In this document: in pieces, positions 34,769-63,663 of the stretch
How the letters are laid out: every line of letters starts with the position of its first letter
Position numbering within the stretch: the first letter of the stretch is position 1
Origin: an uncultured Paracoccaceae bacterium
Lineage (GTDB): Bacteria > Pseudomonadota > Alphaproteobacteria > Rhodobacterales > Rhodobacteraceae
DNA: 64,000 nucleotides
Assembly (NCBI GenBank): GCA_947494675.1
Contig: CANLVP010000001.1
Location: 558,001-622,000, forward strand
Direction: 5' to 3'
The notes under the pieces: generated by a model
Told to the model about the DNA's origin: nothing
Database searches by the model: none
The model's input: the letters and a program-made list of their open reading frames with translations, nothing else
Translations under genes and position numbers: made by a program

Positions 34769-36346
34769 TTAGTCGACAAAAAGATGCGGGGTTTCGGCAA
34801 TCGCCTTTGCGGTATCTTCGTTCAACGTCAGGAACTTGGCAATCTCGCTTGCGTTGCGTTCCACATCCCAAGACTGGCGAATACGTAGGTGATGGGGGAA
34901 ATTCGCGTCCCTGATCCGGTCGCTTTCAAAGATCACATCATAACGGATCGTCGGCAGGATTTGCGCAATCGCGTCGTCTTCTGTCTGCTCTCCAGCCAGC
35001 CCCACCCGCCGGGCATGACCGGCAAGGTATTCATCTGTCATCGCACACTCAATTTCCAATATCCGCGTGGTGGCGCGGTCGGACATAAAGTCCTGCATCA
35101 AATCGAAATTTGCCGTGTCGAGGCAGATGATCATGCGGTCGGTCTCAAAGTGGTCAAACAGCATCCGCATCAGCGCCCGCCGGTGCCGCGTGCGCTTGGC
35201 CAGTGTCGACTGAATGCCCCCCAGATCCGGCATTTCGGTATCTTCTTCGTTGAACAGGTAATCAATCGCCGGAATGTTCGTGTGATGCTTGATCCCGCCC
35301 AACAGCCGCTTGGCCACATGCCACTTTTTGCAAGCCACAATCAGCAGCTCTCTGTCGTGACCGAGCGATGTTTCCGTCTCCCAAAACCGCGTGGCAAACC
35401 GTCGCCCGACGCGCCCGCGCCCGGTGAGGAACTTGTAAAGGTTGCGCCCTTCATTCGAGATTTTGAAATCCCGCCTGTCAGAGGCATAAAGCGCGCCCAA
35501 CCGCGACTTCAGCTCGGTCGCCTCAGGGCTGATCTTGCGGGCAAACAAAGCATCCTGCGAGAGCAACAAATCATAGTGGTCGTTGTAAAACGTCACCGGC
35601 ATGCCGTAGTCGGTAAACATCAAGAACGTCAGCGTCCGCGCCTTGATCTCATCGCCGGGCACAAGGTGCCGCACGAGGGTCTGAAAGAACGTCTCATCGG
35701 GAATCCACGTGGTGCGGAAAAACCGCATCACATCGCGGCGGGTCTTGGTGAAATCAAGGATCGCCTCAATCGTGCGCCGCCGCAGACACCACCATTGGCT
35801 GCCGATCATCACCTGAATGTCGCTGGGAATGTCCCGGGTCAGCCCCAGCGCCCGTTGCAACCTGAAGCTCGCGTAAAACAGCGCCTTTTGCGTGCGCTCG
35901 TTAAAGATATGGCGGTAAATCAACCGCTCTTCCTGCCACCCGGTTTTGATCCATTTGCTCTCGTGGAAGTCAAAACTCTCCACGTAATCCACGTCATCGG
36001 CATCCAGAAATTCATGGGCAAATTCAGCGGATTTGACCGCCATGCAATCGCCTGAGACCATATAGAAATGCGTGGCCCGCGGGAACGCGGCCTCAGCCGC
36101 TTCAACCGCATAAAGCGTGGCTTGCACCAGCGACCACTCGCCCCAACCGCATTTGATCCGCTTGGTTGCAAAAGTGACATTCGGGTTGTCGGCCAAGGCT
36201 CCTTGGATGCGGGCAAACGCTGCCTTGGGCGCGCGCGCATCAAAATGGATCGCGATATAATCGCCAGCCGCCGTTAATTGCTCAGCCTGCTGCACAATGG
36301 CGTCCGGGTCTTTGTGGCACAGCAAAATGAAGGCAATTTTTGCCAT
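34769..36346 (-). CDS. Branch-family glycosyltransferase with DUF5928 C terminus
   Basis: 525 residues. The N-terminal 270 or so resemble the Core-2/I-branching and xylosyltransferase family: MAKIAFILLCHKDPD, KRIKCGWGEWSLVQATL, THFYMVSGDCMAVKS near 93, and IGSQWWCLRR near 182. Eukaryal members add GlcNAc or xylose to glycans. The C-terminal half is the alphaproteobacterial DUF5928 region. No signal or helix; cytoplasmic. Divergent from a sulfotransferase, which suggests joint modification of a surface polysaccharide. Confidence 0.85.
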   Translation of the reverse strand: MAKIAFILLCHKDPDAIVQQAEQLTAAGDYIAIHFDARAPKAAFARIQGALADNPNVTFATKRIKCGWGEWSLVQATLYAVEAAEAAFPRATHFYMVSGDCMAVKSAEFAHEFLDADDVDYVESFDFHESKWIKTGWQEERLIYRHIFNERTQKALFYASFRLQRALGLTRDIPSDIQVMIGSQWWCLRRRTIEAILDFTKTRRDVMRFFRTTWIPDETFFQTLVRHLVPGDEIKARTLTFLMFTDYGMPVTFYNDHYDLLLSQDALFARKISPEATELKSRLGALYASDRRDFKISNEGRNLYKFLTGRGRVGRRFATRFWETETSLGHDRELLIVACKKWHVAKRLLGGIKHHTNIPAIDYLFNEEDTEMPDLGGIQSTLAKRTRHRRALMRMLFDHFETDRMIICLDTANFDLMQDFMSDRATTRILEIECAMTDEYLAGHARRVGLAGEQTEDDAIAQILPTIRYDVIFESDRIRDANFPHHLRIRQSWDVERNASEIAKFLTLNEDTAKAIAETPHLFVD

Positions 36347-41468: not shown

Positions 41469-41702
41469 ATGGATTTACAAGCAATCGGAGTACTCTTGGC
41501 GTCTCAATCCAAGACATGTGGCGTCGCCCCCGCCGACGAAGACCAATTCTACAAGGATTTGGCTTGGGGCAAGCACATCACGATGGTGATTGAGTTGGCC
41601 TCGCATGGCCTTAAGCTCGGCCTCTCAGGTCTTTCCCGTGTTAATCCCAAAAGACGGCACAAACGATGGACATCGACAGCCAATGACACTGCAACAGAAT
41701 GA
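41469..41702 (+). CDS. Small ORF before the LuxR-type regulator (77 aa)
   Basis: 77 residues with a strong GAAGGAG six bases upstream. The first half, QAIGVLLASQSKTCGVAPADEDQFYKD, and a segment VIELASHGLKLGLSGL look plausible, but the last 20 residues are basic and Thr-rich like out-of-frame sequence. It overlaps the regulator start by 20 bases. It may be a true leader protein or a ribosome-delivery ORF. Not recognised. Confidence 0.45.
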   Translation: MDLQAIGVLLASQSKTCGVAPADEDQFYKDLAWGKHITMVIELASHGLKLGLSGLSRVNPKRRHKRWTSTANDTATE

Positions 41703-42657
41703 CCGCGCAGCCATACTTGCTGTGGTCGAAGCGGAAACAGACGCCTATCTGCAACAAGACTATGACGCTTGGCAAAATTGCTGGGTTGAAGGGGACGATA
41801 TTCAACGCATCCAAACGCACGTGGGCAGCGGCGTGACAATCGCCAAGGGACCAGCCGTCAGACGCCAGATGAAAGACATTCTCGCGCAAGTGCAGGACTG
41901 GCAACCGCCACGGCAGTTTCAGCGCAAGAACTATACGGTCGAGATTGGGGTGGACATGGCTTGGGTCAGCTATGATCAAATTGGGGATGCGCCCAGCATT
42001 CCAAAGGACATTCCCGGCCAGTATCACGAACTCAAGATTCTCCGCAAAATCGACGGCGCTTGGAAGATCACCTGCATTGTCAGCACGCAAATCCGCACGA
42101 CGCTGACGCATAGCCCCATGATCGAGGTGGACGACCAAGGACGTGTGCTCGAAATGAACGTCGCAGCCCAAGAACAGCTGCCAGAGCATCCCTTGCTCTA
42201 TTTGAAATCCAACAGGGTATGGGTTCGTGGCGAAGATGCGCTTGCGGACCTGCAGGAGGCCATTGCGAGGTTTGCCAGAATCAGGGCGCGACACACGCCA
42301 TGCGTGGGCGAAGAGGCCGTCATCAAGTCCGTCCTGCTCGGGCAGGATGACGCTGGCATCGCGCATATTTGTTGGGTGCTTTTGCGGGACGGCAAGCTCA
42401 TGATCACCTTCGATGATGGTGAGCGATTAGAGGCCCAACTCAACACTGCATGCGACGTCTACCACTTGTCAGACGCGCAACAAAAACTCGCGCAACACCT
42501 TGTCGCCGGACGCGACATTGCGGCTGCGGCGGAAGCGATGGAAATCAGCATCAATACGGCAAAAACGCATTTGCAGCGCATCTACGACAAGACCGGTGTG
42601 CGCGCACAACCTGCCCTCGTGCGCATCCTGTTGAGCGCAGACCGACGTGACATCTAG
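41683..42657 (+). CDS. LuxR-type HTH regulator with NTF2/SnoaL-like N-terminal domain
   Basis: 324 residues. Residues about 5-120 resemble an NTF2-like ligand pocket (ILAVVEAETDAYLQQDYDAWQNCW, then VEIGVDMAWVSYDQIG, IDGAWKITCIVS). About 130-250 resemble a PAS-type region. The C terminus has a LuxR helix-turn-helix: LSDAQQKLAQHLVAGRDIAAAAEAMEISINTAKTHLQRIYDKTG near 266. The architecture, a small-ligand sensor directly fused to LuxR output, is unusual. Start 41683 lies within the 77-residue ORF. It faces an ABC transporter operon. Confidence 0.8.
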   Translation: MTLQQNDRAAILAVVEAETDAYLQQDYDAWQNCWVEGDDIQRIQTHVGSGVTIAKGPAVRRQMKDILAQVQDWQPPRQFQRKNYTVEIGVDMAWVSYDQIGDAPSIPKDIPGQYHELKILRKIDGAWKITCIVSTQIRTTLTHSPMIEVDDQGRVLEMNVAAQEQLPEHPLLYLKSNRVWVRGEDALADLQEAIARFARIRARHTPCVGEEAVIKSVLLGQDDAGIAHICWVLLRDGKLMITFDDGERLEAQLNTACDVYHLSDAQQKLAQHLVAGRDIAAAAEAMEISINTAKTHLQRIYDKTGVRAQPALVRILLSADRRDI

Positions 42658-42712: not shown

Positions 42713-43489
42713 TCAATCAGATCGGACCAACCCCCAGCGGATCACCGTGCGGTTCTCAATTGTCTTAAAGACGGCGTGGTCCAGGACAAGCCACAAGATG
42801 CCGACAATGATCATCCCAAGAATGACGGTTTCCGTTTGATACCATTGCACCGCGTCTAGCGTCATATAGCCAAGGCCGGTTGTTCCCGCGATCAGCTCAG
42901 CACCGATCAATGCGCGCCATCCAAATGCGACGGACGATCTGAGACCTATCAACAATTGCACCATCGCGCCCGGAACGATGACGTTGAACAAGGTCTGTGT
43001 TGAGCTCGCGCCAAGTGAACGCACAGCGCGCCTGTAACTTTCTGGAACCGCCTCAACACCGATCACCGCGTTATGCAGGTTGGCGAAAAAGATGATATTT
43101 GCGATGACAAAAACGATAGCGCCATTGCCAATGCCGAACCACAAAACGGCCAATGGGATCCACGCAATGCCTGCAATGGATTGCAGGAACGTCAGCAGGG
43201 GCATGCAAAGGTCCGAGACATGTTTGTTCAAGCCAATCGCGATACCCAGTGGGATCGCCAGCGCATTCCCGATCACAAATCCCAATGCCAAGCGTTCCAA
43301 ACTGGCCAGCACATGTTTCAGCAATGACCCATCCGAGAGGGTCGCCGCGAACTGTTCCCAGACCAGTTGTGGCGTTGGCAGTTTATAGGCAGGAATCGGA
43401 AAGATACTGGGGGCTATGAACCACAGCGCCAAGATAGCTGCGAACGGGATCATCGGCAAAAAAAGGCGCGCGGCTTTTGAGGTCATCAT
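42713..43489 (-). CDS. ABC transporter permease, taurine/nitrate (SsuC/TauC) class
   Basis: 258 residues with about six helices. The EAA loop is EAVPESYRRAVRSLGASSTQTLFNVIVPGAMVQLLIGLRSSVAFGWRALIGAEL region near 160-210, starting EAVPESYRRAVRSLG. Last gene of a five-gene unit; its start overlaps the preceding permease stop as ATGA. Pairs with the other permease to form the channel. Confidence 0.88.
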   Translation of the reverse strand: MMTSKAARLFLPMIPFAAILALWFIAPSIFPIPAYKLPTPQLVWEQFAATLSDGSLLKHVLASLERLALGFVIGNALAIPLGIAIGLNKHVSDLCMPLLTFLQSIAGIAWIPLAVLWFGIGNGAIVFVIANIIFFANLHNAVIGVEAVPESYRRAVRSLGASSTQTLFNVIVPGAMVQLLIGLRSSVAFGWRALIGAELIAGTTGLGYMTLDAVQWYQTETVILGMIIVGILWLVLDHAVFKTIENRTVIRWGLVRSD

Positions 43490-44286
43490 GTTTCGCGCCC
43501 CTCTGCCGAGACGACAAGGCCCCAGCGGTGGATCGTCGCCTTCTCAAACGGCTTGAGGTAAAAGAGCTCGATCACGAGCCACAAAACACCCATCACGATC
43601 ATTCCGACAATGGTGCGGTCGGTTTGCTGATTTGCCGCGCCATCAAAGATGAGAAACCCGATACCGCTTGTTGCGGCAATCGCCTCGGCAATGATCAGGC
43701 CGCGAAAGGCAAAGCCTGCGCCGACGCGAAATCCTGTGATGATATTTGGCAAAAGCCCGGGCAGGATCACATTTGTGATGATCTGCAATCGACTGCCGCC
43801 CAAGGACTTGGCCGCATTGATATAGGTTGGTGGGAACGCTCTGATGCCTGCCAGCGTGTTGTAAAGGATCGGAAAAGCCACGACATAGACCAGCAATGTC
43901 AGGATCGTGGTGATGCCGTATCCAAACCAGATCACAAAGATCGGCAACCAGGCGCTTTCGACGATGGCGTAGAAAAAGCTGACCAATGGTGTGAACATTC
44001 TGGCAATGAACTTGTTCAAGCCAAGGCAAAGTGCCGCGATCAGCCCCACCAATAGGCCCAGGCCAACGCCTGCAAAGTACCGCCCCAAACTGTCCAGAAG
44101 ATAGGCCTCAAGGATGCCTTTGTGCCAGAGTTCGACGAAGGCGCGAAAGACATCGCCGGGTTGTGGAAAGAAGTAACTGCCCACACCCGAAAGGCTGGAC
44201 CCGATTTGCCACGCAAGGAAAAAGAGACCAATGCCAATGGCCCCTTTGATCGCCTTTTGACCTTGTCGCGTGCGGGCCGCGTTCAT
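43486..44286 (-). CDS. ABC transporter permease, taurine/nitrate class
   Basis: 266 residues when started at ATG 44286, which overlaps the stop of the 108-residue protein as ATGA. Six helices; EAA-like loop near 170 (RAFPPTYINAAKSLGGSRLQI, FRVGAGFAFRGLIIAEAIA). Related to, but clearly distinct from, the second permease, so the transporter is a heterodimer. The upstream extension to 44337 duplicates out-of-frame residues and is rejected. Confidence 0.87.
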   Translation of the reverse strand: MNAARTRQGQKAIKGAIGIGLFFLAWQIGSSLSGVGSYFFPQPGDVFRAFVELWHKGILEAYLLDSLGRYFAGVGLGLLVGLIAALCLGLNKFIARMFTPLVSFFYAIVESAWLPIFVIWFGYGITTILTLLVYVVAFPILYNTLAGIRAFPPTYINAAKSLGGSRLQIITNVILPGLLPNIITGFRVGAGFAFRGLIIAEAIAATSGIGFLIFDGAANQQTDRTIVGMIVMGVLWLVIELFYLKPFEKATIHRWGLVVSAEGRET

Positions 44287-44609
44287 GAGTCTCCGCCTTC
44301 CGGATACATCTGCAAATCTGCGACCCACGGGCGCCATGACAGGCTTTGCAATGCGTCCCGCCGGACGGCTCTGAGGTGCACATCGGTGCCTTCAACGCTT
44401 GCGATGCGACCTGCGGATTGAAGCTCACTTAGGTGGAACGCTTCTGGCTCAAAAGGCATACTGACAATGATCTCAAATGGACCCGCCCCTCCCGCAAAAC
44501 TCGCCAAATGGTCCTTGCTATCGGCGGCGCGCCCAATTGCGATGAGTGCGACAATCACACCGATACAAAGCGTCGCTTGAACAGGCAGGCTGGCCAAGAC
44601 ACGGCGCAT
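44283..44609 (-). CDS. Unrecognised single-pass membrane protein inside the ABC operon (108 aa)
   Basis: Starts at 44609 in a TGATG overlap with the ATPase stop and ends in an ATGA overlap with the permease gene, so translation is coupled on both sides. One hydrophobic helix (about residues 10-27, ATLCIGVIVALIAIG) is followed by about 80 soluble residues with a beta-rich look (PFEIIVSMPFEPEAF, SVEGTDVHLRAVRRD). No ABC accessory family I know matches. It could be a periplasmic or cytoplasmic auxiliary of the importer. Confidence 0.78.
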   Translation of the reverse strand: MRRVLASLPVQATLCIGVIVALIAIGRAADSKDHLASFAGGAGPFEIIVSMPFEPEAFHLSELQSAGRIASVEGTDVHLRAVRRDALQSLSWRPWVADLQMYPEGGDS

Positions 44610-45400
44610 CAGGCGGCGACAGTCGTTTTCCGCACCAACGCGGTGATTTCTTCGCGAAGTTGCTGGAAGCGGCCATTTTGGTTGAGGTCCGGCCAAACCC
44701 GCAGCGACCGGTCGATATCAACGCTCAGCTCTGCTTTGACCGGCCCCGGGCCTTCTTGCAAAACAACCACGCGGTCGCCCAGAAAAATCGCCTCTTCGAC
44801 GCTGTGGGTGACGAAAAATACGGTCGATTTCGACTGTCCCCAGATACGCACCAACTCCTCTTGCAAGGTCATGCGCGTTTGTGCGTCCACTGCCGCAAAG
44901 GGTTCGTCCATCAAAATAACTTCCGGCGCATTGGCCAGCGTGCGGGCCACAGCGGCGCGTTGGCGCATGCCCCCGGATAGTTCGTGCGGATACTTTTCGG
45001 CAGCCTCTGCCAACCCCGCCAAAGCAAGGAATTCTTTCGCGGTCTTCGTCCGCTCGGTTTTCGAAACGCCCTTAAACTTGAGCCCCAATGCAACGTTATC
45101 CACAACCGTTTTCCATGGAAGGAGCGCATAGTCTTGAAACACCACACCTCGGTCGCTTCCCGGCCCTGCGATGGGGCGCTCATTCATCTCTAGCACCCCG
45201 CTTTGCGGAGAGATGAACCCCGCGATGGTGGACAAGAGCGTAGATTTTCCGCAGCCGCTAGGCCCCACGACGACCAGAAACTCTCCCTCTCGGATGTCGA
45301 GCGTCATGTTGTCCAGGGCAAGGTGCCGTTGCCCTGTCGCGGCATGCACATAAGACACTTTTAGGTCTCTTACTTTGATCTTCGGCATGCCGTCGGACAT
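44609..45400 (-). CDS. ABC transporter ATP-binding protein, taurine/nitrate class
   Basis: 263 residues. Walker A GPSGCGKSTLL near 43, Q-loop VFQDYALLPWKT near 88, signature LSGGMRQRAAVARTL near 138, Walker B VILMDEPFAAVD near 158 and H-loop VTHSVEEA near 193. Several starts exist; 45400 is chosen for a six-base spacing to GGGGAG. Sits between the binding protein and the 108-residue protein genes. Confidence 0.93.
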   Translation of the reverse strand: MSDGMPKIKVRDLKVSYVHAATGQRHLALDNMTLDIREGEFLVVVGPSGCGKSTLLSTIAGFISPQSGVLEMNERPIAGPGSDRGVVFQDYALLPWKTVVDNVALGLKFKGVSKTERTKTAKEFLALAGLAEAAEKYPHELSGGMRQRAAVARTLANAPEVILMDEPFAAVDAQTRMTLQEELVRIWGQSKSTVFFVTHSVEEAIFLGDRVVVLQEGPGPVKAELSVDIDRSLRVWPDLNQNGRFQQLREEITALVRKTTVAA

Positions 45401-45457
45401 CATATTCTCCCCAATCACCGCGCGACTTAGGCATCGCGCGGTTCTCGTTTGCGGGTC

Positions 45458-46492
45458 CTATTTTAGCAGAAGATCTGCAGGAACGGCGTCCAAATCGCTG
45501 AAGAACTCCGGCGCTTCGGACATGGCGTGGTTGATGAACTGGCCGTCAACAGCCACGCTCAGGTCAATCTCGTCGCGCAGACGATCCGCTGCGGCCAAGA
45601 CCGGAATGGTCTTTGCGGCATACATATCTACCGTGACTTGCGTCATACGTGGATCGTTCAACCCGTTGCGCATGGCGGCTTTCATGACGTCGGCATCCTT
45701 CAGGTTGATCCAGCGCAGGTTGACCTCTGCAGCGGCATCAAGGTCTTGGCGCACGATCTGTGAAGCCTCGGAAAAAGCCACCATAAAGCGGCGCAGCTGT
45801 TCGGCCTTTTCCTCCGCAACATCATGTGTCGTCAGAACGGTGCCCGGATCATAGCACGTGTCGCACTGCCCTGAAATCAGCTGCTCAGCATCTGGCACGT
45901 TCACAGCGCTGGTCGACAGCCAAGGTTCCCAGACCGAGATCGCATCAACATCGCCATTCAATAGCGCAGTTGGCAGTTCAGGCGGCTTCACATTGACAAG
46001 CTCCACATCGTCCTCTGTCAGACCAGCTTGCGACAGCAACCCAAGCACATAACCTTCGGCACCCGTGCCGCGCGGCAGGCCAATCGTCTTTCCCTTCAGG
46101 TCTGCAACGGCCGTAATGTCATTGCGTGCCGCGATACCAACGTTGTCGACATAGCTCTCGGCCAGCGCGTTTCCGTGGAGATGCCCAATCAGCACAAGCG
46201 GAAAGCCGTTCGAGACGCCGGACAGAAAAGGGATCGTGCCCATCGTGTTGACGTCATGCGCACCCGCCAAAAGACCGTTGATCATCTCAACACCGGATTG
46301 AAACATGACCACTTCGACATCAAGACCATGCTTTTCGAATAGACCTTGCTCCACCGCCACGAAAACTGGCGCATGAAGCGTTCCGCCTGCGGCCGCCACC
46401 TTGAGCGGCAACAAGTCTTCGGCCCATGCCGGGACGGCTGATACGACGGCACTCAGCACAGCCGCGCCAAGCCATTTCATTGAATTCTTCAT
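45458..46492 (-). CDS. ABC substrate-binding protein, TauA/SsuA/NMT1-like
   Basis: 344 residues. Signal peptide about 1-24 (SAVPAWAEDL), then the type II periplasmic fold: LPLKVAAAGGTLHAPVFVAVEQGLFEKHGLDVEVV, LPRGTGAEGYVLGLLSQAGL near 140, and AISVWEPWLSTSAV near 185. Family ligands are sulfonates, nitrate or thiamine precursors; ligand here unknown. ATG 46492 with AGGGAGG upstream. Cys pair QCDTCYD near 210 may form a disulfide. First gene of the transporter operon. Confidence 0.9.
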   Translation of the reverse strand: MKNSMKWLGAAVLSAVVSAVPAWAEDLLPLKVAAAGGTLHAPVFVAVEQGLFEKHGLDVEVVMFQSGVEMINGLLAGAHDVNTMGTIPFLSGVSNGFPLVLIGHLHGNALAESYVDNVGIAARNDITAVADLKGKTIGLPRGTGAEGYVLGLLSQAGLTEDDVELVNVKPPELPTALLNGDVDAISVWEPWLSTSAVNVPDAEQLISGQCDTCYDPGTVLTTHDVAEEKAEQLRRFMVAFSEASQIVRQDLDAAAEVNLRWINLKDADVMKAAMRNGLNDPRMTQVTVDMYAAKTIPVLAAADRLRDEIDLSVAVDGQFINHAMSEAPEFFSDLDAVPADLLLK

Positions 46493-46529
46493 TTTAGTTC
46501 CTCCCTCTAATAGTGAAAAACCGCGCGCC

Positions 46530-47186
46530 CTAAACGAGCCCCCTTTCGGTGCCCAAGGCGCGGTTTTCCGACACATCCAGATGCGCCACCAAAGCGCGGG
46601 CTGCATCCTCGGTTCGTTGCTCCAGCAACGCATCAATGACGATCAAATGTTCTTGCATGGCGGGCAAAACGCGGCTGGGCGTGTAGCGCGCGTTCAGCCG
46701 GATAAGACGCACCTTGTCAGCGTTGCGCCTGTGAATATCAGTGAGAACCTCGTTGTTCATGGCCGCGATCAGGCCGTTGTGAAGCTCCCAATCGACCTCA
46801 TAGGCTTGCTTCAACAGCGCGCTATCAACGTTTTTCTCGGCCTGCGCGATGATGGACTGGGTGCGGTCACGCAGGTCTTTCAACGCGGGCCAATCCTTGA
46901 GGTAATTCAGATCGCGGCAGGCGCCCAACTCCAAAAAGCGGCGCACCTGAAACGCGTCTTTGATGAACTGATCATTCACCCTTGCGATGCGCACCCCCCG
47001 CTGCGGCAAAAGCTCGACCAAGCTCTCTGCCTCAAGCTGTCGCAAGGCGTCACGCAACGGGCTGATCGAGACGTCCAGCGTGTCACAGAGCTCTCGCAAG
47101 GACAGGAATTGGCCCGGATAAATCCGCTCTCCAAAGAGGGCTTCCTTGAAAACATCGTAAGCCGCCTGGCGCATTACTTGGGTCAT
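46530..47186 (-). CDS. GntR regulator, FadR/FCD subfamily
   Basis: 218 residues. Winged helix near 15-75 (GQFLSLRELCDTLDVSISPLRDALRQLEAESLVELLPQRG), then an FCD ligand domain with FLELGACRDL and the metal-binding His pattern VDWELHNGLIAAMNN. Start 47186 is the first ATG after the divergent intergenic region. Read upstream of and in the same direction as the transporter operon; likely controls both it and the sulfatase. Confidence 0.88.
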   Translation of the reverse strand: MTQVMRQAAYDVFKEALFGERIYPGQFLSLRELCDTLDVSISPLRDALRQLEAESLVELLPQRGVRIARVNDQFIKDAFQVRRFLELGACRDLNYLKDWPALKDLRDRTQSIIAQAEKNVDSALLKQAYEVDWELHNGLIAAMNNEVLTDIHRRNADKVRLIRLNARYTPSRVLPAMQEHLIVIDALLEQRTEDAARALVAHLDVSENRALGTERGLV

Positions 47187-47201
47187 TGCTTCTCGTATTC
47201 T

Positions 47202-47217
47202 AACTGAAATTTCAGTT
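47202..47217. promoter_or_regulatory. Palindrome AACTGAAATTTCAGTT in GntR-sulfatase gap
   Basis: Perfect 16-bp palindrome about 16 bases upstream of the GntR start; suits an autoregulatory dimer site. Confidence 0.6.
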
Positions 47218-47233
47218 GAGGTATCAATTAAAA

Positions 47234-47245
47234 TGCAATATTGCA
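47234..47245. promoter_or_regulatory. Palindrome TGCAATATTGCA in GntR-sulfatase gap
   Basis: Perfect 12-bp palindrome, 16 bases beyond the first. GntR members of the FCD group often bind AT-rich palindromes of this size. About 80 bases before the sulfatase start. Confidence 0.5.
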
Positions 47246-47323
47246 ACCTTAAATTAGGGGCGAAGGACATCGATTGATTTTGAAGCCAGTTGCAGGTCCA
47301 AGATCCCAAGGAGCCAAGATCTA

Positions 47324-48793
47324 ATGCCGCGAAATATTCTTTTCCTCTTTTCAGATCAGCATGCGCAGAAGGTGTCCGGCGCCTATGGGGACCCTGTGGT
47401 TCAGACTCCGAATATTGACCGTCTGGCCAAGGAAGGTGTGCGCTTTGACAACGCTTACTGTCCGTCGCCAATTTGCGTGCCAAGCCGCATGTCCACTTTG
47501 ACAGCGCGCCACCCATCTTCTCAGGAATGCTGGGCGAATGATGATATTTTGCGATCTGATTTGCCGACCTGGCTGCATTCTGTTGGTGCCGCGGGCTACG
47601 ATCCGGTCTTGATCGGGCGGATGCATGCCATTGGGCCCGATCAATTCCACGGCTATGCGGATCGGCAGATTGGGGATCATTCACCCAATTTTCCGGGTGC
47701 CAAGCGGCAACCAATGGGTCCGCTGGAAAAGGCCAACGATCCTTTTCGCGAGTCGCTCGACAAATCCGGCGCTGGGATGAGTGCCTATCAGGCCAAAGAC
47801 GAAGATGTCACCGACGCTGCCGTCAAGTGGCTGCAGGGGGCAGGTGCGGCCAAAATCGCCAATGGAGACCCCTTTTGTTTGAGCGTGGGATTGATGCTGC
47901 CGCATCCCCCCTATGTGGCCGACCAAGACGCGTTCGATCTCTACGATGGTCACATCCCCGCACCAACACTGGGCGCAGATGACATGCCAGGGGCGTTTCA
48001 CGCGTGGTGGCGCAAAGCCCGCGGCATTGAAGATGTCCCCGAATGCGACGCCGCGCGCGCACGCGCGGCCTATTGGGCGCTCGTCCACCGCATGGACGAA
48101 ATGATTGGCCGCATTTTGAACGCGTTAGAAGCCATCGGCGCCATGGACGACACATTGATTGTCTATGCCTCTGACCATGGTGATCACCTCGGAGAGCGCG
48201 GCCTTTGGTGGAAACACACGTTCTTTGATGAAAGCGCAAAAGTGCCCTTGATCATGCGCCTGCCCGGCGTATTGCCCGCGGGCGAAGTCCGCAAGCAGGT
48301 CGTCAGCCTGATTGATCTCAGCCAAACCATGCTCGACGCTATCGGCGCGCAGCAACTTCCCAATGCAGACGGGGACAGTTTCTGGCCCGTTGCGCAGCAC
48401 GCAAATGCCCCGTGGAAAGACGAAGCCTTTTGCGAGTATTGCACCGATCCGGTGCCCAACTGGACAAATGGCCGTGCCGTTCAACAACGCATGATCCGGT
48501 CCGGTAATTGGAAGCTATCGGTGTACGACAGCGAGCCGCCTTTGCTGTTTGATCTGGCCACAGATCCGAACGAATGCGTCGATCGCGCAAATGACCCCGC
48601 CTGCGCGGCCATCCTGGCCGATCTGATGCAACGGCTTTTGCAGGGTTGGGACCCTGAGACAATTGCAAAGCAAATGCGCGTGCGACGTGCTGACAAAGAT
48701 ATTCTTGCCGCATGGGCCAGTCGCGTCCAGCCAGCGGGCAATCTGATTTGGCAATTCAATGAAGATACCAATCGTCTCACCCCAAAACCTTGA
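47324..48793 (+). CDS. Sulfatase (formylglycine type)
   Basis: 489 residues. The activation motif C-x-P-x-R is complete at Cys51 to Arg55 (ICVPSRMSTLTA), the site modified to formylglycine. N-terminal LFLFSDQHAQ provides metal residues, and the second metal site is ASDHGDHLGERG near 285. GRMHAIGPDQFHGY near 103 resembles choline-sulfatase-like enzymes, so a small sulfate ester is likely but unproven. No signal peptide, hence cytoplasmic: substrate would have to be imported, matching the divergent transporter. Confidence 0.88.
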   Translation: MPRNILFLFSDQHAQKVSGAYGDPVVQTPNIDRLAKEGVRFDNAYCPSPICVPSRMSTLTARHPSSQECWANDDILRSDLPTWLHSVGAAGYDPVLIGRMHAIGPDQFHGYADRQIGDHSPNFPGAKRQPMGPLEKANDPFRESLDKSGAGMSAYQAKDEDVTDAAVKWLQGAGAAKIANGDPFCLSVGLMLPHPPYVADQDAFDLYDGHIPAPTLGADDMPGAFHAWWRKARGIEDVPECDAARARAAYWALVHRMDEMIGRILNALEAIGAMDDTLIVYASDHGDHLGERGLWWKHTFFDESAKVPLIMRLPGVLPAGEVRKQVVSLIDLSQTMLDAIGAQQLPNADGDSFWPVAQHANAPWKDEAFCEYCTDPVPNWTNGRAVQQRMIRSGNWKLSVYDSEPPLLFDLATDPNECVDRANDPACAAILADLMQRLLQGWDPETIAKQMRVRRADKDILAAWASRVQPAGNLIWQFNEDTNRLTPKP

Positions 48794-49790: not shown

Positions 49791-50558
49791 ATGCCTTTTG
49801 AACCCGTCGCCCAAGATAAGCTGTCCCACGGCGTGGTCCGCCAGATCGAAGAGCTGATCCTGCGCGGCATCATCCGCCCCGGCGAACGCCTGCCCTCTGA
49901 ACGCGAGCTGTCCGAACGCATGGGCGTGTCCCGCCCGTCCTTGCGCGAAGCACTGGCCGACCTGCAAGATCGTGGCCTGTTGACCTCCAAGGCCGGTGCC
50001 GGTGTCTTTGTGGCCGATGTCCTCGGCAGCGCCTTTGCCCCTGCCCTTGTCACGCTCTTTGCCACCCATGATACGGCCGTTTTTGACTACATCAGCTTTC
50101 GCCGCGATATGGAGGGGTTGGCCGCCGAACGCGCAGCACAGTTTGGCAGCGACACCGACCTGCAGGTGATCGCCACGATCTACGCCAAAATGGAAGCCGC
50201 CCACCAAAAGCGTGACCCCGCCGACGAGGCCGCGCTCGACGCTGATTTCCACCTCGCCATTATCGAGGCGAGCCACAACGTCGTGATGCTGCACATGATG
50301 CGCTCCATGTATCAGTTGCTCCGCGAAGGCGTGTTCTACAACCGCACCATCATGTTCAAGCAACGGCTAACCCGCGACCAGCTTCTGGACCAGCACCGCG
50401 CGATCAACGACGCCCTGCAAGCCCGCGACGCCAAAGCCGCCCGCGCCGCCGTCGAAAGCCACCTTGGCTTTGTCGAAACCGCCCTCTTTGGCCACCAGAA
50501 ATCGGAACGCAACGAGGTCTACGCCAAAAAGCGGTTCGAGGCCGAAAGCAAAAGATAG
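49791..50558 (+). CDS. GntR regulator, FadR/FCD subfamily
   Basis: 255 residues. Winged helix near 8-72 with LPSERELSERMGVSRPSLREALADLQDRGL, then the all-helical FCD domain with FHLAIIEASHNVVMLHMM near 148, whose His residues form the metal site. Followed after 137 bases by the TRAP operon on the same strand. It most likely represses itself and the TRAP genes; the near-identical site before glcD suggests a wider role. Confidence 0.92.
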   Translation: MPFEPVAQDKLSHGVVRQIEELILRGIIRPGERLPSERELSERMGVSRPSLREALADLQDRGLLTSKAGAGVFVADVLGSAFAPALVTLFATHDTAVFDYISFRRDMEGLAAERAAQFGSDTDLQVIATIYAKMEAAHQKRDPADEAALDADFHLAIIEASHNVVMLHMMRSMYQLLREGVFYNRTIMFKQRLTRDQLLDQHRAINDALQARDAKAARAAVESHLGFVETALFGHQKSERNEVYAKKRFEAESKR

Positions 50559-50695
50559 CACCCGGGCCAAGTCGGCTTTCGCGCCCCCCGTGACGATTAC
50601 ACGCCCTGAACCCGGCGATAAATCGTGCTAGACACCACTTGGGATGCCCCATACCCCTGTTGTCAGAAAAAACTGGTCATCCACGGGAGGACAAA

Positions 50696-51736
50696 ATGAC
50701 TCTATTCAGAAGAAATCTGCTGAAACTCACGGCCGCTGCGGCCATCAGCCTCGGCGCTTCTGCCACCATGTCGACCGCGCAAGAAGTAACCCTGCGCCTG
50801 CACCAATTCCTGCCTCCGCAGGCAAACGTGCCCAAGAACATCATCATCCCATGGATCGAACAGATCGAAGAAGCCTCTGACGGGCGCATCAAGATCGACC
50901 ACTTCCCGGCCATGCAACTGGGCGGCACCCCGCCAGAGCTGATCAACCAGGCGATCGACGGCGTGGCCGACATCATCTGGACCGTCTCCGGCTATACCCC
51001 GGGTCGTTTCCCGCACACCGAGGTCTTTGAACTGCCCTTCATGATGACCGACGCCGAGGCCGCAAGCCGCGCCTATTGGGAGATGTCGCAGAAATACATG
51101 GTGGAGGGCGAGTTTTCGGACTTCCACCTGCTGGGCGCGTGGGTCCACGGCCCCGGCATCATCCACTCCAGCGATCCGATCATGGCGCCAGAGGATCTCA
51201 ACGGCGTGACACTGCGCGCACCAACCCGCGTGACCAACATGATGCTGACCGGCATGGGCGCGTCAGCCATCGGCATGCCCGTCCCAGCCGTGCCAGAGGC
51301 GCTGTCCAAAGGCGTGATCGACGCCACCGTGATCCCTTGGGAAGTCACCGGCGCGTTGAAAGTGCCTGAACTGGTCACCAACCACCTGGAATTTGGCGAC
51401 GCATCGCTCTACACCGCGACCTTCCTCTTTGCGATGAACAAAGACGCCTACGACGCCATGCCCGACGACCTCAAGGCCATCCTCGACGCCAACTCCGGCG
51501 CGGATTTCTCCGCCGCTGCGGGCAAGCAAATGCAGCTCGACGATGGCCCCTCACGGGACGCCGCACTTGATCTGGGCAACAACGTCACCACGCTGTCACC
51601 CGAACAGGTAGACGCTTGGCGTGCCGCCGCACAGCCGACCATCGACCAATGGATCGCGGAAGTCGCGGACCAGGGCATGGACGGTGCTGCGCTGATCGAT
51701 GAGGCGAAAGCCCTGATGGAACAATATTCCAACTAA
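50696..51736 (+). CDS. TRAP transporter substrate-binding protein, DctP type
   Basis: 346 residues. N-terminal LFRRNLLKLTAAAAISLGASATM carries RRNLLK, a Tat-like motif, with cleavage near STAQE. The fold follows: HQFLPPQANVPKNIIIPWIEQIEEASDGRIKI, the ligand Arg region VTLRAPTRVTN near 170, and YTATFLFAMNKDAYDAM near 245. GGGAGG precedes ATG 50696. Substrate acids are typical but not identified here. Confidence 0.9.
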   Translation: MTLFRRNLLKLTAAAAISLGASATMSTAQEVTLRLHQFLPPQANVPKNIIIPWIEQIEEASDGRIKIDHFPAMQLGGTPPELINQAIDGVADIIWTVSGYTPGRFPHTEVFELPFMMTDAEAASRAYWEMSQKYMVEGEFSDFHLLGAWVHGPGIIHSSDPIMAPEDLNGVTLRAPTRVTNMMLTGMGASAIGMPVPAVPEALSKGVIDATVIPWEVTGALKVPELVTNHLEFGDASLYTATFLFAMNKDAYDAMPDDLKAILDANSGADFSAAAGKQMQLDDGPSRDAALDLGNNVTTLSPEQVDAWRAAAQPTIDQWIAEVADQGMDGAALIDEAKALMEQYSN

Positions 51737-51743
51737 ACACATC

Positions 51744-51770
51744 GCGGCCCCGCCCCATCGGCGGGGCCGC
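51744..51770 (+). terminator. Hairpin between dctP and dctQ genes
   Basis: Perfect 11-bp GCGGCCCCGCC/GGCGGGGCCGC stem with loop CCATC, no T-run. It probably limits transcription into the permease genes so the binding protein is made in excess. Confidence 0.7.
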
Positions 51771-51791
51771 TTACCACTTGCCTGGTCCTTC

Positions 51792-52373
51792 ATGCATAAC
51801 TTTGCCACAACACTTGCACGCCTGATGGCCATCTTGGGCGGCTTGATCCTGACCGCGCTGGTTGTGCTCGTCTGCGTCAGCATCCTTGGGCGCGGCGGCA
51901 ACAGCTTTGCCCATTGGGACACCATCGAAACATCCGCGCCCGGGCTCTCGGCGTTCTTGCTTGGGGCAGGCATCGGTGGCGTGCCGGGCGACTATGAAAT
52001 CGTCGAAGCCGCGATTGCCTTTGCGATCTTTGCCTTCCTGCCGCTCTGCCAACTCAAAAGCGCCCACGCCACGGTGGACGTCTTCACATCCTTCCTGCCC
52101 GACCGCCTGAACCACATCCTCAAAGCCTTCTGGGACGTCGTGCTCTGCGCAGCCATCCTCCTAATCACATGGCGTCTTGGTATCGGGCTGATGGACAAAA
52201 TCGGCAACGGCGAAACCACGTTTATCCTGGGCTTCCCCAAATGGTGGGGCTACGCGGCCAGCCTGATCGCGGCCATCGCCGCCTCAATCGTGGCGCTTTA
52301 TTGCGCCTACGCGCGCAGCGCCGCCGCCCTGCGCGGCACCACCGCCACCATCGATCAGGAAGAGGCCGCCTAG
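51792..52373 (+). CDS. TRAP transporter small permease, DctQ type
   Basis: 193 residues, four helices (about 10-30, 60-80, 105-125, 148-168), with the insert TIETSAPGLSAF typical of this subgroup. Directly followed by the large permease start (no gap). Supports the DctM channel. Confidence 0.85.
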   Translation: MHNFATTLARLMAILGGLILTALVVLVCVSILGRGGNSFAHWDTIETSAPGLSAFLLGAGIGGVPGDYEIVEAAIAFAIFAFLPLCQLKSAHATVDVFTSFLPDRLNHILKAFWDVVLCAAILLITWRLGIGLMDKIGNGETTFILGFPKWWGYAASLIAAIAASIVALYCAYARSAAALRGTTATIDQEEAA

Positions 52374-53873
52374 ATGTCGATGCTTGAACTCGGCTTCTGG
52401 TCCTTCCCGGTCCTGCTCTTGCTGATCTTTGCCCGTGCCCCCATTGGGCTGGCGATGCTGGGCGTGGGCATCGGTGGCATCTGGCTGGCGCTGGGGGCAC
52501 CTGACGTCTTTCTCGCCAAGCTCAAGACCGAAACCTTCACCACCTTCTCCAGCTACTCGCTCACCATCATCCCGATGTTCCTGCTGATGGGGCAATTCGC
52601 AACGCTGTCCGGCATGTCGCAATCCCTGTTCAAAGCCGCCGAAAGCTGGCTGGGCCACCGCAAGGGCGGCGTCGCCATGGCCTCTGTCGGGGCTTGCGCG
52701 GGCTTTGGCGCGATCTGCGGATCATCGCTCGCCACCGCCGCCACGATGAGCAAGGTTGCCCTGCCCGAACTCAAGCGCTACGGCTATTCCGGCGGCTTCT
52801 CCACCGCCACGTTGGCGGCAGGCGGCACCTTGGGCATCCTTATCCCGCCCTCCGTGATCCTCGTGATCTACGCCATCCTCACCGAACAAAACATCGCCAA
52901 GCTTTTCCTTGCAGCCTTTTTGCCGGGGATCTTGGCCGCCTTGGGCTATATGATCACGATCTCGATCTACGTCCGGCTGTTCCCCGACGCGGCAGGCACA
53001 AGACCAGCCATGCCCTACAGCGACCGCTTCAAGGCGCTGGTCAACGTCTGGCCCGTCGTGATGGTCTTTGGCCTCGTGGTCGGTGGCATCTATCTGGGCT
53101 GGTTCACCCCGACCGAAGGGGCCGCCGTCGGCGCATTTGGCACCGGGCTTCTGGCCTATCTCTCGGGCAACCTGTCTTGGGCGCTCTTTCGCGACGCCAT
53201 CCTCGCCACCGCCACCACAACCGGCATGATCTTCTTCATCATACTTGGGGCCGCGTTCTATAATTCCTTCCTGGCCCTGACACAGGTACCACAGGAACTG
53301 GCCGATTTCGTGCTGTCGCTTGGCCTGACCCCGTGGATGGTGCTAGTGCTTATCCTGATCTTCTACCTGATCTTTGGCTGCGTGATGGACTCGCTCTCAA
53401 TGATCCTGCTGACGATCCCGATCTTTTTTCCGGTCATTTCGGCCATGGATTTCGGCCTTGTGAACCTCGCCGAACTGCAAGCCGACATGGCGCTCGATGC
53501 ACTCGCCGCAGGCGTCCCGCAAGGCATGGCCGCCGACATGCTGGACAGCATCCAGACCGCCATCGCGACAGGGGCCGAACTAACCCGCGACCAGATGGCC
53601 GCCCTCGATATCCGCATGACCCAAGGCATGGCCAACCGGATTGAGGCTGAATACCTCGCGATCTGGTTCGGCATTCTGGTGCTGATCGTGGTTGAGGTGG
53701 GCCTGATCACGCCGCCCGTGGGTATGAACCTCTTCATCATCAACACGATGGACCGCGACACCCCAATGGTTGAAACCTACAAGGCTGTGATGTTCTTTGT
53801 GGCCTCAGACATCTTCCGCGTGATCCTGCTGGTGCTATTTCCCTCCATCACCCTCTTTGTCCTCACGCTCTGA
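52374..53873 (+). CDS. TRAP transporter large permease, DctM type, with insertion
   Basis: 499 residues; the usual size is about 425. The twelve-helix core is recognised by GFGAICGSSLATAATMSKVALPELKRYGY near 105 and GGTLGILIPPSVILVIYAI near 155. A soluble stretch of about 70 residues (about 358-428, starting VNLAELQADMALDALAAG) is inserted before the last helix pair, which carries VGLITPPVGMNLFI. The insert is in frame and compositionally normal. Confidence 0.9.
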   Translation: MSMLELGFWSFPVLLLLIFARAPIGLAMLGVGIGGIWLALGAPDVFLAKLKTETFTTFSSYSLTIIPMFLLMGQFATLSGMSQSLFKAAESWLGHRKGGVAMASVGACAGFGAICGSSLATAATMSKVALPELKRYGYSGGFSTATLAAGGTLGILIPPSVILVIYAILTEQNIAKLFLAAFLPGILAALGYMITISIYVRLFPDAAGTRPAMPYSDRFKALVNVWPVVMVFGLVVGGIYLGWFTPTEGAAVGAFGTGLLAYLSGNLSWALFRDAILATATTTGMIFFIILGAAFYNSFLALTQVPQELADFVLSLGLTPWMVLVLILIFYLIFGCVMDSLSMILLTIPIFFPVISAMDFGLVNLAELQADMALDALAAGVPQGMAADMLDSIQTAIATGAELTRDQMAALDIRMTQGMANRIEAEYLAIWFGILVLIVVEVGLITPPVGMNLFIINTMDRDTPMVETYKAVMFFVASDIFRVILLVLFPSITLFVLTL

Positions 53874-53893
53874 CCGACGAAAGACACACCACC

Positions 53894-54658
53894 ATGAACC
53901 TCTCCGGCAACGTCGCACTTATCACCGGCGCTGGCTCCGGCCTTGGGGCCGCCACCGCGCGTCACTTCGCGGCTGAGGGGGCAAAGGTCGCCGTGTTGGA
54001 CATGAACCTTGATGCCGCCCAAGCCGTCGCACAGGACATCGGCGGCCATGCCATCGCGGCAGACGTCAGTGATGCCGCTGCCGTTGACCAGGCCCTTGAC
54101 GCCGCGACCAAGGCACTGGGGCAAGCCCCCCGCGTCGCCGTCAATTGTGCAGGCGTCGCCATGGGCGCGCGCATGGTCAGCCGCGACGGGGAACCATCTT
54201 TCGACGTGTTTGAAAAGACCCTGCGCGTGAACCTCTTTGGCACCTACAACGTCATGACCCACGCCGCCAAACGGATGATGACGCTGGACGCCGATGCAGG
54301 CGGCGAACGCGGCGTGATCATCAACACCGCCTCCGTGGCCTGGCAAGACGGCCAAATGGGCCAGACCGCCTATGCGGCCTCCAAAGGGGCCATCGCCGCC
54401 ATGTCCCTGCCCGCCGCGCGCGAGCTTGCCCGCGCTGGCATCCGCGTCATGGCCATCGCGCCGGGGCTTTTCAAAACCCCGATGATGGAAGCCCTGCCCG
54501 AAGAGGTGACGGAGAAGATCACCGCCGACATCCAGTTCCCGACCCGCCTTGGCGATCCGCAGGAATACGCGCTGATGGCCGCCCAGATCGTCGCCAACAG
54601 CTACCTCAACGGCACCACGATCCGCCTTGATGGCGCGGTGCGCCTTCCGCCAAAATAA
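53894..54658 (+). CDS. Short-chain dehydrogenase, HSD10/3-hydroxyacyl type
   Basis: 254 residues. NAD site ITGAGSGLGAATARHFAAEGAKVAVLDMN near 11 (Asp at the strand end indicates NAD), NCAGVAMGA near 90, catalytic Ser near 145 (INTASVAWQDGQMGQ) and YAASKG near 161. The region after NCAG resembles HSD10 3-hydroxyacyl-CoA dehydrogenase. Cotranscribed with the TRAP genes, so it probably oxidises the imported acid or its CoA ester. Confidence 0.86.
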   Translation: MNLSGNVALITGAGSGLGAATARHFAAEGAKVAVLDMNLDAAQAVAQDIGGHAIAADVSDAAAVDQALDAATKALGQAPRVAVNCAGVAMGARMVSRDGEPSFDVFEKTLRVNLFGTYNVMTHAAKRMMTLDADAGGERGVIINTASVAWQDGQMGQTAYAASKGAIAAMSLPAARELARAGIRVMAIAPGLFKTPMMEALPEEVTEKITADIQFPTRLGDPQEYALMAAQIVANSYLNGTTIRLDGAVRLPPK

Positions 54659-61490: not shown

Positions 61491-61557
61491 GTCGGCGTCG
61501 CGTCTCCACACCATGCCAATTTGATGTCGCGGCTTGCCGCGTCCTTGGGATCAGCCA

Positions 61558-62103
61558 ATGACGCCTGCACCGACGCTCCATACCAAGCGCCTGACCCTGC
61601 GCGGCCCTGAAAAGGGCGATCTGGCCCCTTTCACGGACTGGCTGGTCAATTCTGACCGGCTGGAACATCTGGGCGGCAATGTGGATGCCAACAAGGCATG
61701 GGGCGGGATGATCTCTGGCATCGGCCATTGGCAATGGCACGGCTATGGCTTTTTCACTGTGGTCGAGACCGCGACCAACACGCCCATGGGGCGCGCGGGC
61801 ATTCTCAACCATCTGCAATGGCCTGAACCGGAACTGGCCTACCATCTTTTCGACAATGGTGAGGGCAAGGGCTACGCCTATGAAGCCGCCGTCGCGGTCC
61901 GTCACTGGTCTGGTCAGGCCAAAGGCCTTGGGCCGCTGATCTCGATCATCTCACCCGCCAACACCCGCTCGATCGCCTTGGCCGAACGGCTGGGGGCAGT
62001 GCCGGAAAAAGATACGACGCATGACGGGGCGCCGGCGATCTATTACCGCCATCTGGCCCATAATGTCCCCGCAGCTTTGGCCCAGTGGGAGGCGGTGCAA
62101 TGA
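61558..62103 (+). CDS. GNAT acetyltransferase, RimJ/RimL-like, first of five
   Basis: 181 residues. LHTKRLTLRGPEKGDLAPF opens the family fold. The acetyl-CoA loop is FDNGEGKGYAYEAAVAVRHW near 109, and SPANTRSIALAERLGA near 142 closes the fold. Acetylates N-terminal amines or small molecules. ATG 61558 is preferred over 61534 for family alignment. ATGA overlap to the next gene. Confidence 0.87.
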   Translation: MTPAPTLHTKRLTLRGPEKGDLAPFTDWLVNSDRLEHLGGNVDANKAWGGMISGIGHWQWHGYGFFTVVETATNTPMGRAGILNHLQWPEPELAYHLFDNGEGKGYAYEAAVAVRHWSGQAKGLGPLISIISPANTRSIALAERLGAVPEKDTTHDGAPAIYYRHLAHNVPAALAQWEAVQ

Positions 62104-62609
62104 TCCCGACCCTCACCACCAGCCGCATGACGCTTGGGCCGTTTACCTTGGCCCATCACACCGCCTTTTCCGCATTCTGCGCAACCGAACGCTCGGTCTT
62201 TCTGGGTGGCCCCACGACCGATCCACGTGATGCCTGGGACAGTTGCATGATCCACCTTGGTCAATGGCACGCCCGCGGCTACGGCGGCTTTTTCGCGACA
62301 GAAACCGTCACCGGCACGCCATGCGGACGGTTTTCGATCTGGCACCCCAGCAGCCTTGATGAACCCGAACTCAGCTGGGTGGTGTTTGACGGCTTTGAGG
62401 GCATGGGCCTCGCCGCGGAAGGCGCCATTGCCCTGCGCGATTGGGCCGCGACCCAAGGCCTGCCTGCGCTGGCCTCTTATATTGCCACAGAGAATACCCG
62501 CTCCATCGCCCTGGCCCAGCGCCTTGGCTGCACCCGCGACGGCACCCACACCTATCGCCCCGGCGATGAGGTTGAGGTTTGGCGCCATCCCATGGGGCAG
62601 CCCGCATGA
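62100..62609 (+). CDS. GNAT acetyltransferase, second of five
   Basis: 169 residues. Similar layout: LTTSRMTLGPFTLAHH, an acetyl-CoA loop FDGFEGMGLAAEGAIALRDWA near 100, and TENTRSIALAQRLGC near 134. Starts within the TGA of the first gene. Confidence 0.87.
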   Translation: MIPTLTTSRMTLGPFTLAHHTAFSAFCATERSVFLGGPTTDPRDAWDSCMIHLGQWHARGYGGFFATETVTGTPCGRFSIWHPSSLDEPELSWVVFDGFEGMGLAAEGAIALRDWAATQGLPALASYIATENTRSIALAQRLGCTRDGTHTYRPGDEVEVWRHPMGQPA

Positions 62610-63118
62610 GCATGACCCTGCAAACCCAGCGCCTCGTGCTGCGCCAGCCCAGCCCGTCGGACTGGACCCCGTTTCATGACTTCATGATGTCGGACCGCTC
62701 CACGATGTTCGGCTCGCACGGTGATCTGGGCCGCACCTGGCGTGCCTTTGCGGGTGAGCTGGGCCATTGGCAGATCTATGACTACGGCATGTGGACGGTA
62801 ACCAAACGCGGCAGTGACACGGCCCTTGGTTTTGTCGGCCCCTGGACCCCGCCTGACTGGCCTGAGACGGAAATCGGCTGGATGATGTTTGACGCCGCCG
62901 CCGAAGGCACTGGCATTGCGTCTGAGGCCGCCCAAGCCGCAATCAGCCATGCCTGGGACGTGCTGGGCTGGAAAACTATCGTCAGCTACATTCTGCCCGA
63001 CAATCACCGCTCGATCCGGCTGGCAGAAAAGCTGGGTGCAAGCCTTGATACCGATGCCACCGGCCCCACGGCGGAAACGCTCGTTTACCGCCACCCGCGC
63101 AGGGGGGCACGCCGATGA
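62606..63118 (+). CDS. GNAT acetyltransferase, third of five
   Basis: 170 residues. LQTQRLVLRQPSPSDW, acetyl-CoA loop FDAAAEGTGIASEAAQAAISHAW near 95, LPDNHRSIRLAEKLGA near 132. Shares the same ATGA junctions; sequence differs enough that the copies are old paralogues. Confidence 0.86.
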   Translation: MSMTLQTQRLVLRQPSPSDWTPFHDFMMSDRSTMFGSHGDLGRTWRAFAGELGHWQIYDYGMWTVTKRGSDTALGFVGPWTPPDWPETEIGWMMFDAAAEGTGIASEAAQAAISHAWDVLGWKTIVSYILPDNHRSIRLAEKLGASLDTDATGPTAETLVYRHPRRGARR

Positions 63119-63663
63119 CACGCCATCCTTGGGAAACCCCGCCAAAGGCAAACCACATCGCGCGCGCCCTGCCGGTGATCAAAACCGAACGCCTCATCCT
63201 GCGCGCGCCGCGTCTGGAGGATTGGCCAACGCTCGAACCCATTTTCACGACCGACCGCGCCACACATATCGGCGGGCCGATGTCGGCAGAGGATGCCTGG
63301 CTTGATTTCAACCAGCTTGTCGCGGGCTGGATCCTGCGCGGCCACGGCGCGCTAACGATCACACGCCACGGGGATGACACGCCGCTGGGTCTGGTCCTGC
63401 TGGGTCACGAATTTGGCGACCCGCAGGCCGAGCTGGGTTGGCTTTTGACCGAAGCCGCCGAAGGGCATGGCTACGCCAGTGAAGCCGCATTGGCCTTGCG
63501 TGATTGGGGTTTTGATCTGTTAGGCCGTGACGGCTTTGTCAGCTATATCGCCGACGGCAACGCCGCCTCTCACAAGGTCGCCACCCGGCTGGGGGCTGCC
63601 CGCATAGGCCACCACCCGCTGGACAGCGACGTGGCAATCTACGGCTACGGAGGTGCGGCATGA
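63115..63663 (+). CDS. GNAT acetyltransferase, fourth of five
   Basis: 182 residues. IKTERLILRAPRLEDW begins about 20 residues in, so it has a longer N terminus than the other copies. Acetyl-CoA loop TEAAEGHGYASEAALALRDW near 117, and DGNAASHKVATRLGA near 149. Confidence 0.87.
   Translation: MTRHPWETPPKANHIARALPVIKTERLILRAPRLEDWPTLEPIFTTDRATHIGGPMSAEDAWLDFNQLVAGWILRGHGALTITRHGDDTPLGLVLLGHEFGDPQAELGWLLTEAAEGHGYASEAALALRDWGFDLLGRDGFVSYIADGNAASHKVATRLGAARIGHHPLDSDVAIYGYGGAA

Follow-up and report, generated by a model that had tools for sequence, protein, structure and literature searches.

The 64,000-nucleotide window analysed here (positions 558,001 to 622,000 of contig CANLVP010000001.1, assembly GCA_947494675.1, from an uncultured Paracoccaceae bacterium) carries, between positions 42713 and 48793, a predicted formylglycine sulfatase gene divergent from the genes of a GntR-type regulator and of an ATP-binding cassette (ABC) importer of the NitT/TauT class, with genes and strands as a preliminary description, made from the sequence alone, had drawn them. 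The sulfatase gene (47324..48793, plus strand) encodes 489 amino acids (aa) with the Pfam domains PF00884 (151.6 bits, cut-off 25) and PF16347. On the minus strand lie the genes of the GntR/FCD regulator (46530..47186, 218 aa, PF00392 and PF07729), of a periplasmic binding protein of the NMT1/SsuA type (45458..46492, 344 aa, PF09084 at 92.5 bits), whose N-terminus MKNSMKWLGAAVLSAVVSAVPAWAE reads as a signal peptide, of the importer ATPase (44609..45403 from an ATG start, 264 aa, or 269 aa with the GTG at 45418; PF00005 at 110.8 bits), of a small 108-aa protein (44283..44609), of permease A (43486..44286, 266 aa from the ATG at 44286; BPD_transp_1, PF00528 at 87.4 bits on the longer open reading frame) and of permease B (42713..43489, 258 aa; BPD_transp_1, PF00528 at 77.5 bits). 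The importer had been called complete, and its binding protein, ATPase and two permeases are indeed present, but the 108-aa gene, located between the ATPase and permease A genes and overlapping both, had been overlooked. The successive overlaps (TGATG between the ATPase and 108-aa genes, then ATGA on either side of permease A) make it probable that the genes from the ATPase to permease B are translated as one unit.

PF09084, PF00528 (twice) and PF00005 all score above their cut-offs, which assigns the importer to the NitT/TauT class. The NCBIfam cut-offs of the named taurine and aliphatic sulfonate importers (TauABC, SsuABC) were missed, the binding protein reaching 156.5 bits on TIGR01728 of the SsuA family (cut-off 163.5) and 62.5 of 304.25 on the taurine binding protein model, the two permeases 139.7 and 122.7 of 342 on the TauC model, and the ATPase 248.3 of 357 on the taurine ATPase model. 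In the sulfatase, Cys51-Val-Pro-Ser-Arg (within ICVPSR) forms the Cys-X-Pro-X-Arg signature, and Asp11, Asp284 and His285 align with the metal ligands of choline sulfatases. Since the protein starts straight away with its catalytic strand (MPRNILFLFSDQ), no signal peptide is visible by reading of the sequence, no prediction program being used, and the enzyme is thus taken to be cytosolic, as had been proposed before.

The regulator, the sulfatase and the importer recur together in related genomes. Within the family sample of 295 genomes, a sulfatase was found in 12 at an E value of 1e-80; sulfatases at least 68% identical occur in the window's own genome and in two others, G045 (68%) and G227, and these are the same three genomes (3/295) that encode the small protein. 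In G045 and G227, GntR regulators of 41-46% identity adjoin the sulfatase, permease A is 52-55% identical, and permease B of G045 is 57% identical. Screening some 85,000 species genomes yielded 93 sulfatase relatives, the best 80 of which were kept; the marker table covers 67 of these loci together with L024 and the window, the last 13 (L103-L115) being excluded, among them L105, a 118-residue fragment (62%) at the end of a contig. Markers were counted by tblastn, because gene calling took wrong frames in several GC-rich loci. ATPase and permease A are present in 14 loci, namely the window, L024, L036, L037, L038, L039, L044, L047, L048, L056, L057, L062, L073 and L075, where L024 is G045, L039 is nearly identical to it, and L037 and G227 denote one and the same contig. 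Nine of the 14 show an aldo/keto reductase (AKR) gene in view (about 2 kb away in L048), eight an Amidohydro_2 lactonase and ten at least one of the two, and neither is in view in the window, L036, L037 and L075. One further sulfatase-importer locus, L163, was found through the small protein, and a search for plasmid-borne relatives of the sulfatase at 1e-100 gave no match. In the sulfatase tree, built by a quick method with SH-aLRT support only, and leaving out partial sulfatases and L039, the window falls into a seven-row clade (window, L036, L037, L038, L024, L040 and L041) with a support of 100. In two clade members, L040 and L041, a tripartite tricarboxylate transporter takes the place of the ABC importer next to the regulator and the sulfatase.

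A link to fucose comes from one of these relatives. In G045, twelve genes follow one another on one strand over about 10.6 kb, in the order GntR, sulfatase, binding protein, ATPase, small gene, permeases A and B, AKR, lactonase, SDR, FAH and L-fuconate dehydratase. The dehydratase has its best match in the Protein Data Bank (PDB) with 4ip4 (721.5 bits), followed by the L-fuconate dehydratases 1yey and 2hne (555 bits), and the Amidohydro_2 lactonase scores best on the L-fucono-1,5-lactonase model, below its cut-off (117.4 of 400 bits), and in the PDB on 4dlf (44.5 bits). An L-fuconate dehydratase (E at most 1e-140) is encoded by 6 of the 7 species of the window's sulfatase clade, as compared with 9 of 384 other alphaproteobacterial genomes (Fisher p 7e-9) and with none of the 12 genomes of outer-clade loci, that is, loci tied to the importer or to its GntR, AKR or SBP (substrate-binding protein) genes (p 3e-4); the genomes of the fragments L094 and L095 have none either (0/2). 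Within the family, the dehydratase is present in two of the three carriers against 20 of the 292 other genomes (p 0.015). Five dehydratase loci were opened, and FAH and SDR genes adjoin in three of them (L129, L130 and L131), only an SDR in L132, while neither was called in L133. In the window genome, a dehydratase with 72% identity to the G045 enzyme is encoded at C3:447873-449138. Around it, C3:441449-453604 (L122 and L123) holds two sugar ABC importers, one of them of the ribose type, a beta-propeller lactonase, an SDR, the L-fuconate dehydratase and an FAH hydrolase.

The gap between the divergent genes supplies a candidate operator. Two perfect palindromes had been described there and were confirmed, each occurring a single time in the window: AACTGAAATTTCAGTT (47202-47217), upstream of the GntR start codon at a distance of 15 bp, and TGCAATATTGCA (47234-47245). 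When the 134-bp gap was simulated 5000 times under a first-order Markov model, 0.22% of the samples contained a perfect palindrome of at least 16 bp and 0.02% a pair of 16 and 12 bp. The first palindrome is conserved upstream of GntR, where the pattern ACTRA-N4-TYAGT is matched at 9 or 10 of its 10 positions in 13 of 16 loci. The pattern was derived from 11 upstream regions, and of the five loci outside the derivation two match (L073 and L075) and three fail (L056, L062 and L066). The copy in the gap is the sole perfect copy of ACTGARWWYTCAGT in the genome; within one mismatch, three places were found genome-wide, all on C1, and the two with one mismatch equal in number those obtained with the reversed control pattern (2). 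GntR may be the protein that binds the 47202-47217 palindrome. The second palindrome was rejected as a part of the system, as TGCAATATTGCA was not seen again among the top five perfect palindromes of each upstream region of 10 relatives. The LuxR-type regulator gene that had been noted at the other end (41590-42657, plus strand, convergent with permease B) is real and carries a SnoaL-like domain at its N-terminus in place of a receiver, but nothing ties it to the system, as no match was found in 68 related loci, several of them on short contigs.

Additionally, the importer appears to contain a fifth component. The 108-aa protein belongs to no Pfam or NCBIfam family (a Pfam scan at E of at most 1 gave one-member weak matches, the best at 0.071), and its gene is present in all 14 sulfatase-linked loci having ATPase and permease A; at the low threshold used, 25-bit matches also occurred in L053, L055, L063 and L097, which lack the importer, and were taken as chance. 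A profile built from 13 members matched 11 of 385 alphaproteobacterial genomes, the window genome included, and in all ten others the match sits in an operon with an ATPase, two permeases and a binding protein, in three gene orders, with a sulfatase in only one (L163). A separate permease A search matched 23 of 308 genomes at 1e-30, overlapping those of the profile search, and the small gene stood beside permease A in 8 of the 8 strongest-match genomes (at least 185 bits) and in none of the 15 weaker ones. Counted by operon, excluding L181 (contig end) and L196-L202 (second-permease matches of operons already counted), it is present in 8 of 9 two-permease operons, L189 being without it, versus none of 13 loci showing a single permease within the view of about 3.7 kb (p 3e-5). 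AlphaFold2 models the protein as an N-terminal membrane helix (residues 7-38) followed by a beta-alpha-beta-beta-alpha-beta, ferredoxin-like domain, at a mean pLDDT of 88.9. Summed over 20 members, the net charge is +45 before the helix and +4 after it, so the domain most likely faces the periplasm. Foldseek against the PDB gave 343 matches at E of at most 10 and none at 0.001, headed by subtilisin-propeptide-type and other ferredoxin-like domains; the modelled fold is thus an ordinary one and yields no function. The two-permease importers that have the small subunit and no sulfatase in view include those of L169-L172, in three of which (L170-L172) the binding protein and small genes adjoin genes read as SnoaL-like or hydrolase-like, and these importers likely serve other substrates.

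Based on the gene set, its conservation, the clade-wise co-occurrence with the dehydratase and the contiguous fucose operon of a relative, all of which are read from the sequences, we propose, at a probability of roughly one half, that the cluster imports a sulfated monosaccharide, likeliest fucose sulfate or a close L-galacto-configured sugar sulfate, which is desulfated in the cytosol. The binding protein would capture the sugar sulfate freed from algal or diatom fucans by other organisms, and the NitT/TauT-class importer, with its two different permeases and the small membrane-anchored subunit, would take it up, the periplasm-facing ferredoxin-like domain perhaps aiding the docking of the binding protein, which we put forward as a proposal. 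Upon removal of the sulfate by the formylglycine sulfatase, the free sugar could enter a non-phosphorylating pathway of dehydrogenase, lactonase, L-fuconate dehydratase, 2-keto-3-deoxy-fuconate dehydrogenase and FAH-type hydrolase, in the window genome probably in part via the fucose genes on contig C3. GntR would act from the intervening palindrome to control importer and sulfatase alike, and its effector is likely to be either the sugar or the sulfated sugar. The ligand, the direction of regulation and the role of the small subunit are what we infer from these arrangements. The earlier proposal of uptake coupled to desulfation is supported, and its substrate, left as an unknown sulfate ester, can be narrowed to a sugar sulfate. 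That the substrate is a sugar sulfate of one kind or another we consider likely, whichever sugar it may be.

Which sugar is less certain, and several results weigh against fucose. The very best PDB match of the G045 dehydratase, 4ip4, has no named function, the G045 AKR is nearest to L-galactose dehydrogenases (86 bits), and the FAH hydrolase scores best on the L-rhamnonate-pathway hydrolase model (397.7 bits, cut-off 500). The contiguity with the dehydratase comes from one species only, G045 and its near-identical assembly (L039/L129), and one clade member, L037/G227, lacks the dehydratase at an estimated completeness of 96%. In the window genome, the fucose genes lie on another contig, C3, and not in the sulfatase-importer operon; no operator copy within one mismatch occurs on C3, so that a regulon shared with them finds no support, and the best relatives of the G045 AKR and lactonase are 32% and 26% identical and are no orthologues, so that no fucose dehydrogenase emerged from this comparison. 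Moreover, the clade was chosen after the data had been seen and the background genomes differ taxonomically, so the p values serve as a guide. Less probably, the same mechanism may serve another sulfated sugar; L-galactose sulfate, L-rhamnose sulfate and sulfated sugar acids are examples, and the AKR and FAH affinities would point in this direction. The outer clade shares the regulator, sulfatase and importer, often with AKR and lactonase, and yet has no L-fuconate dehydratase, and fuconate dehydratases also accept L-galactonate and D-arabinonate. In the sister clade, the sulfatases of L042, L049, L052 and L102 (around 10001-11450) are accompanied by tripartite-tricarboxylate-type transporter genes and an MR/MLE enolase, in L102 also by a galactarate/altronate-dehydratase-like protein, the transporter type being Pfam-tested in L040 and read by eye in these four; such neighbours suggest that the sulfatase family is matched to different sulfated sugars or sugar acids, and the four loci themselves may represent a desulfation route for a sulfated sugar acid. 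Against another sugar at this locus stands the marker of the window's own clade, which is of the L-fuconate type in all but one species and contiguous in G045.

Readings outside the sugar sulfates fare worse. Choline sulfate, which headed the tests suggested in the preliminary description, or another small alkyl sulfate used as osmoprotectant or sulfur source, is very unlikely as the substrate, even though choline sulfatases are the closest solved relatives of the enzyme (6fny at 198.5 bits) and TIGR03417, the choline sulfatase model, is its best NCBIfam model: the score of 303.6 bits is well below the cut-off of 433.45, and the GW-X13-WYHN hairpin, which clamps choline in choline sulfatase (PMC9063841), is deleted in the window sulfatase and in eight aligned relatives, together with most of the long C-terminal tail. 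The genome has seven PF00884 places, and one separate, choline-sulfatase-like protein (L004) possesses the complete hairpin; betaine genes were not seen in the 14 ABC loci, though no search was aimed at them. The acidic Asp375 sits, by reading of the alignment, at the position of residue 386 of the Sinorhizobium meliloti enzyme SmCS, reported as important for choline recognition (PMC5870055), and judged by this position alone the recognition of a cation could still be possible. It is also decidedly improbable that the substrate of the enzyme is a phosphonate monoester or a phosphodiester and that an organophosphorus compound is what the importer brings in. Phosphonate monoester hydrolases do come next among the PDB matches (2w8s, 124.2 bits) and GntR matches the phosphonate-regulator model weakly (68.7 bits, cut-off 271.5), but the choline sulfatases outscore these hydrolases and the recurring neighbours in the loci listed are sugar-oxidation genes, not phosphonate genes. 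Finally, importer and sulfatase might be independent neighbours, with the former supplying the cell with sulfur in the form of taurine or another sulfonate. In favour of this, the best-scoring models for its subunits are those of sulfonate, taurine and SaoPA systems, none of which reaches its cut-off, and the tricarboxylate-type transporter replaces it in L040 and L041. We consider this improbable, since the genes are linked in at least 14 sulfatase loci and L163, since the three of 295 family genomes that encode the close sulfatase are precisely the three that encode the small protein, and since the conserved operator candidate lies between the importer and sulfatase genes.

Sulfated-monomer uptake, if borne out, would matter for marine carbon. 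In seawater, the fucose-rich sulfated glycans that diatoms and brown algae produce are persistent, and a role as a carbon sink has been described for them (PMC12872454). A marine alphaproteobacterial group possesses the fucose pathway without polymer machinery, its access to fucose being left open (PMC11366302). Import of sulfated monomers followed by cytosolic desulfation would be one possible route for alphaproteobacteria generally and would supply marker genes to look for. We tentatively extend the proposal, at less than even odds, to a class of scavengers whose ABC importers admit sulfated monosaccharides intact, for desulfation in the cytosol, and to a distinct two-permease NitT/TauT group with a further obligatory single-helix subunit, whose periplasmic ferredoxin-like domain (F-x-PE-x-FH ... 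Q-x-x-GR motif) would dock or gate the binding protein, like the inserted permease domain elsewhere. The conserved, unnamed fifth component of this importer group is a concrete target for structure and genetics.

Other genes of the window were observed in passing. A carbohydrate-type sulfotransferase (PF03567; 36500-37315, plus strand) and a Branch-family glycosyltransferase with DUF5928 (34772-36346, minus strand) adjoin each other about 6 kb from the sulfatase cluster; a separate cluster at 49791-54658 (plus strand) comprises a second GntR/FCD regulator, a DctP-type TRAP transporter and an SDR; and at 61534-63998 (plus strand) five consecutive open reading frames read as GNAT-type acetyltransferases, the one tested being Acetyltransf_3.

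No description of a fucose sulfate ABC importer that works together with a cytosolic sulfatase was found in the open-access literature searched, and the system is best placed by its resemblance to known ones. The sulfatase resembles BetC (SmCS, PDB 6fny/6g5z), a cytosolic-type S1 formylglycine sulfatase with which its metal-ligand and formylglycine positions align, but it lacks the choline hairpin and the greater part of the tail, and stands beside sugar-type genes rather than in a bet operon. The importer shares with TauABC, SsuABC and the nitrate-class importers the NMT1/SsuA-type binding protein, the BPD_transp_1 permeases and a related ATPase, whereas its permeases are encoded by two distinct genes, a small membrane protein is added to them, and all NCBIfam equivalog cut-offs are missed. 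Genes of the non-phosphorylating L-fucose pathway, known from Xanthomonas and Burkholderia enzymes, follow the sulfatase-importer operon in G045; however, the descriptions consulted concern free fucose (PMC11366302), while in this case the pathway comes after a sulfatase and an importer of the sulfonate class. The combination of a sulfatase with fucose catabolism also recalls the fucoidan-degrading Verrucomicrobiota, which have many sulfatases, fucosidases and fucose catabolism (PMC8857213); but these employ polysaccharide loci with fucosidases and S1_17/S1_25-type sulfatases, whereas the locus reported here has a single cytosol-type sulfatase and a small-molecule importer.

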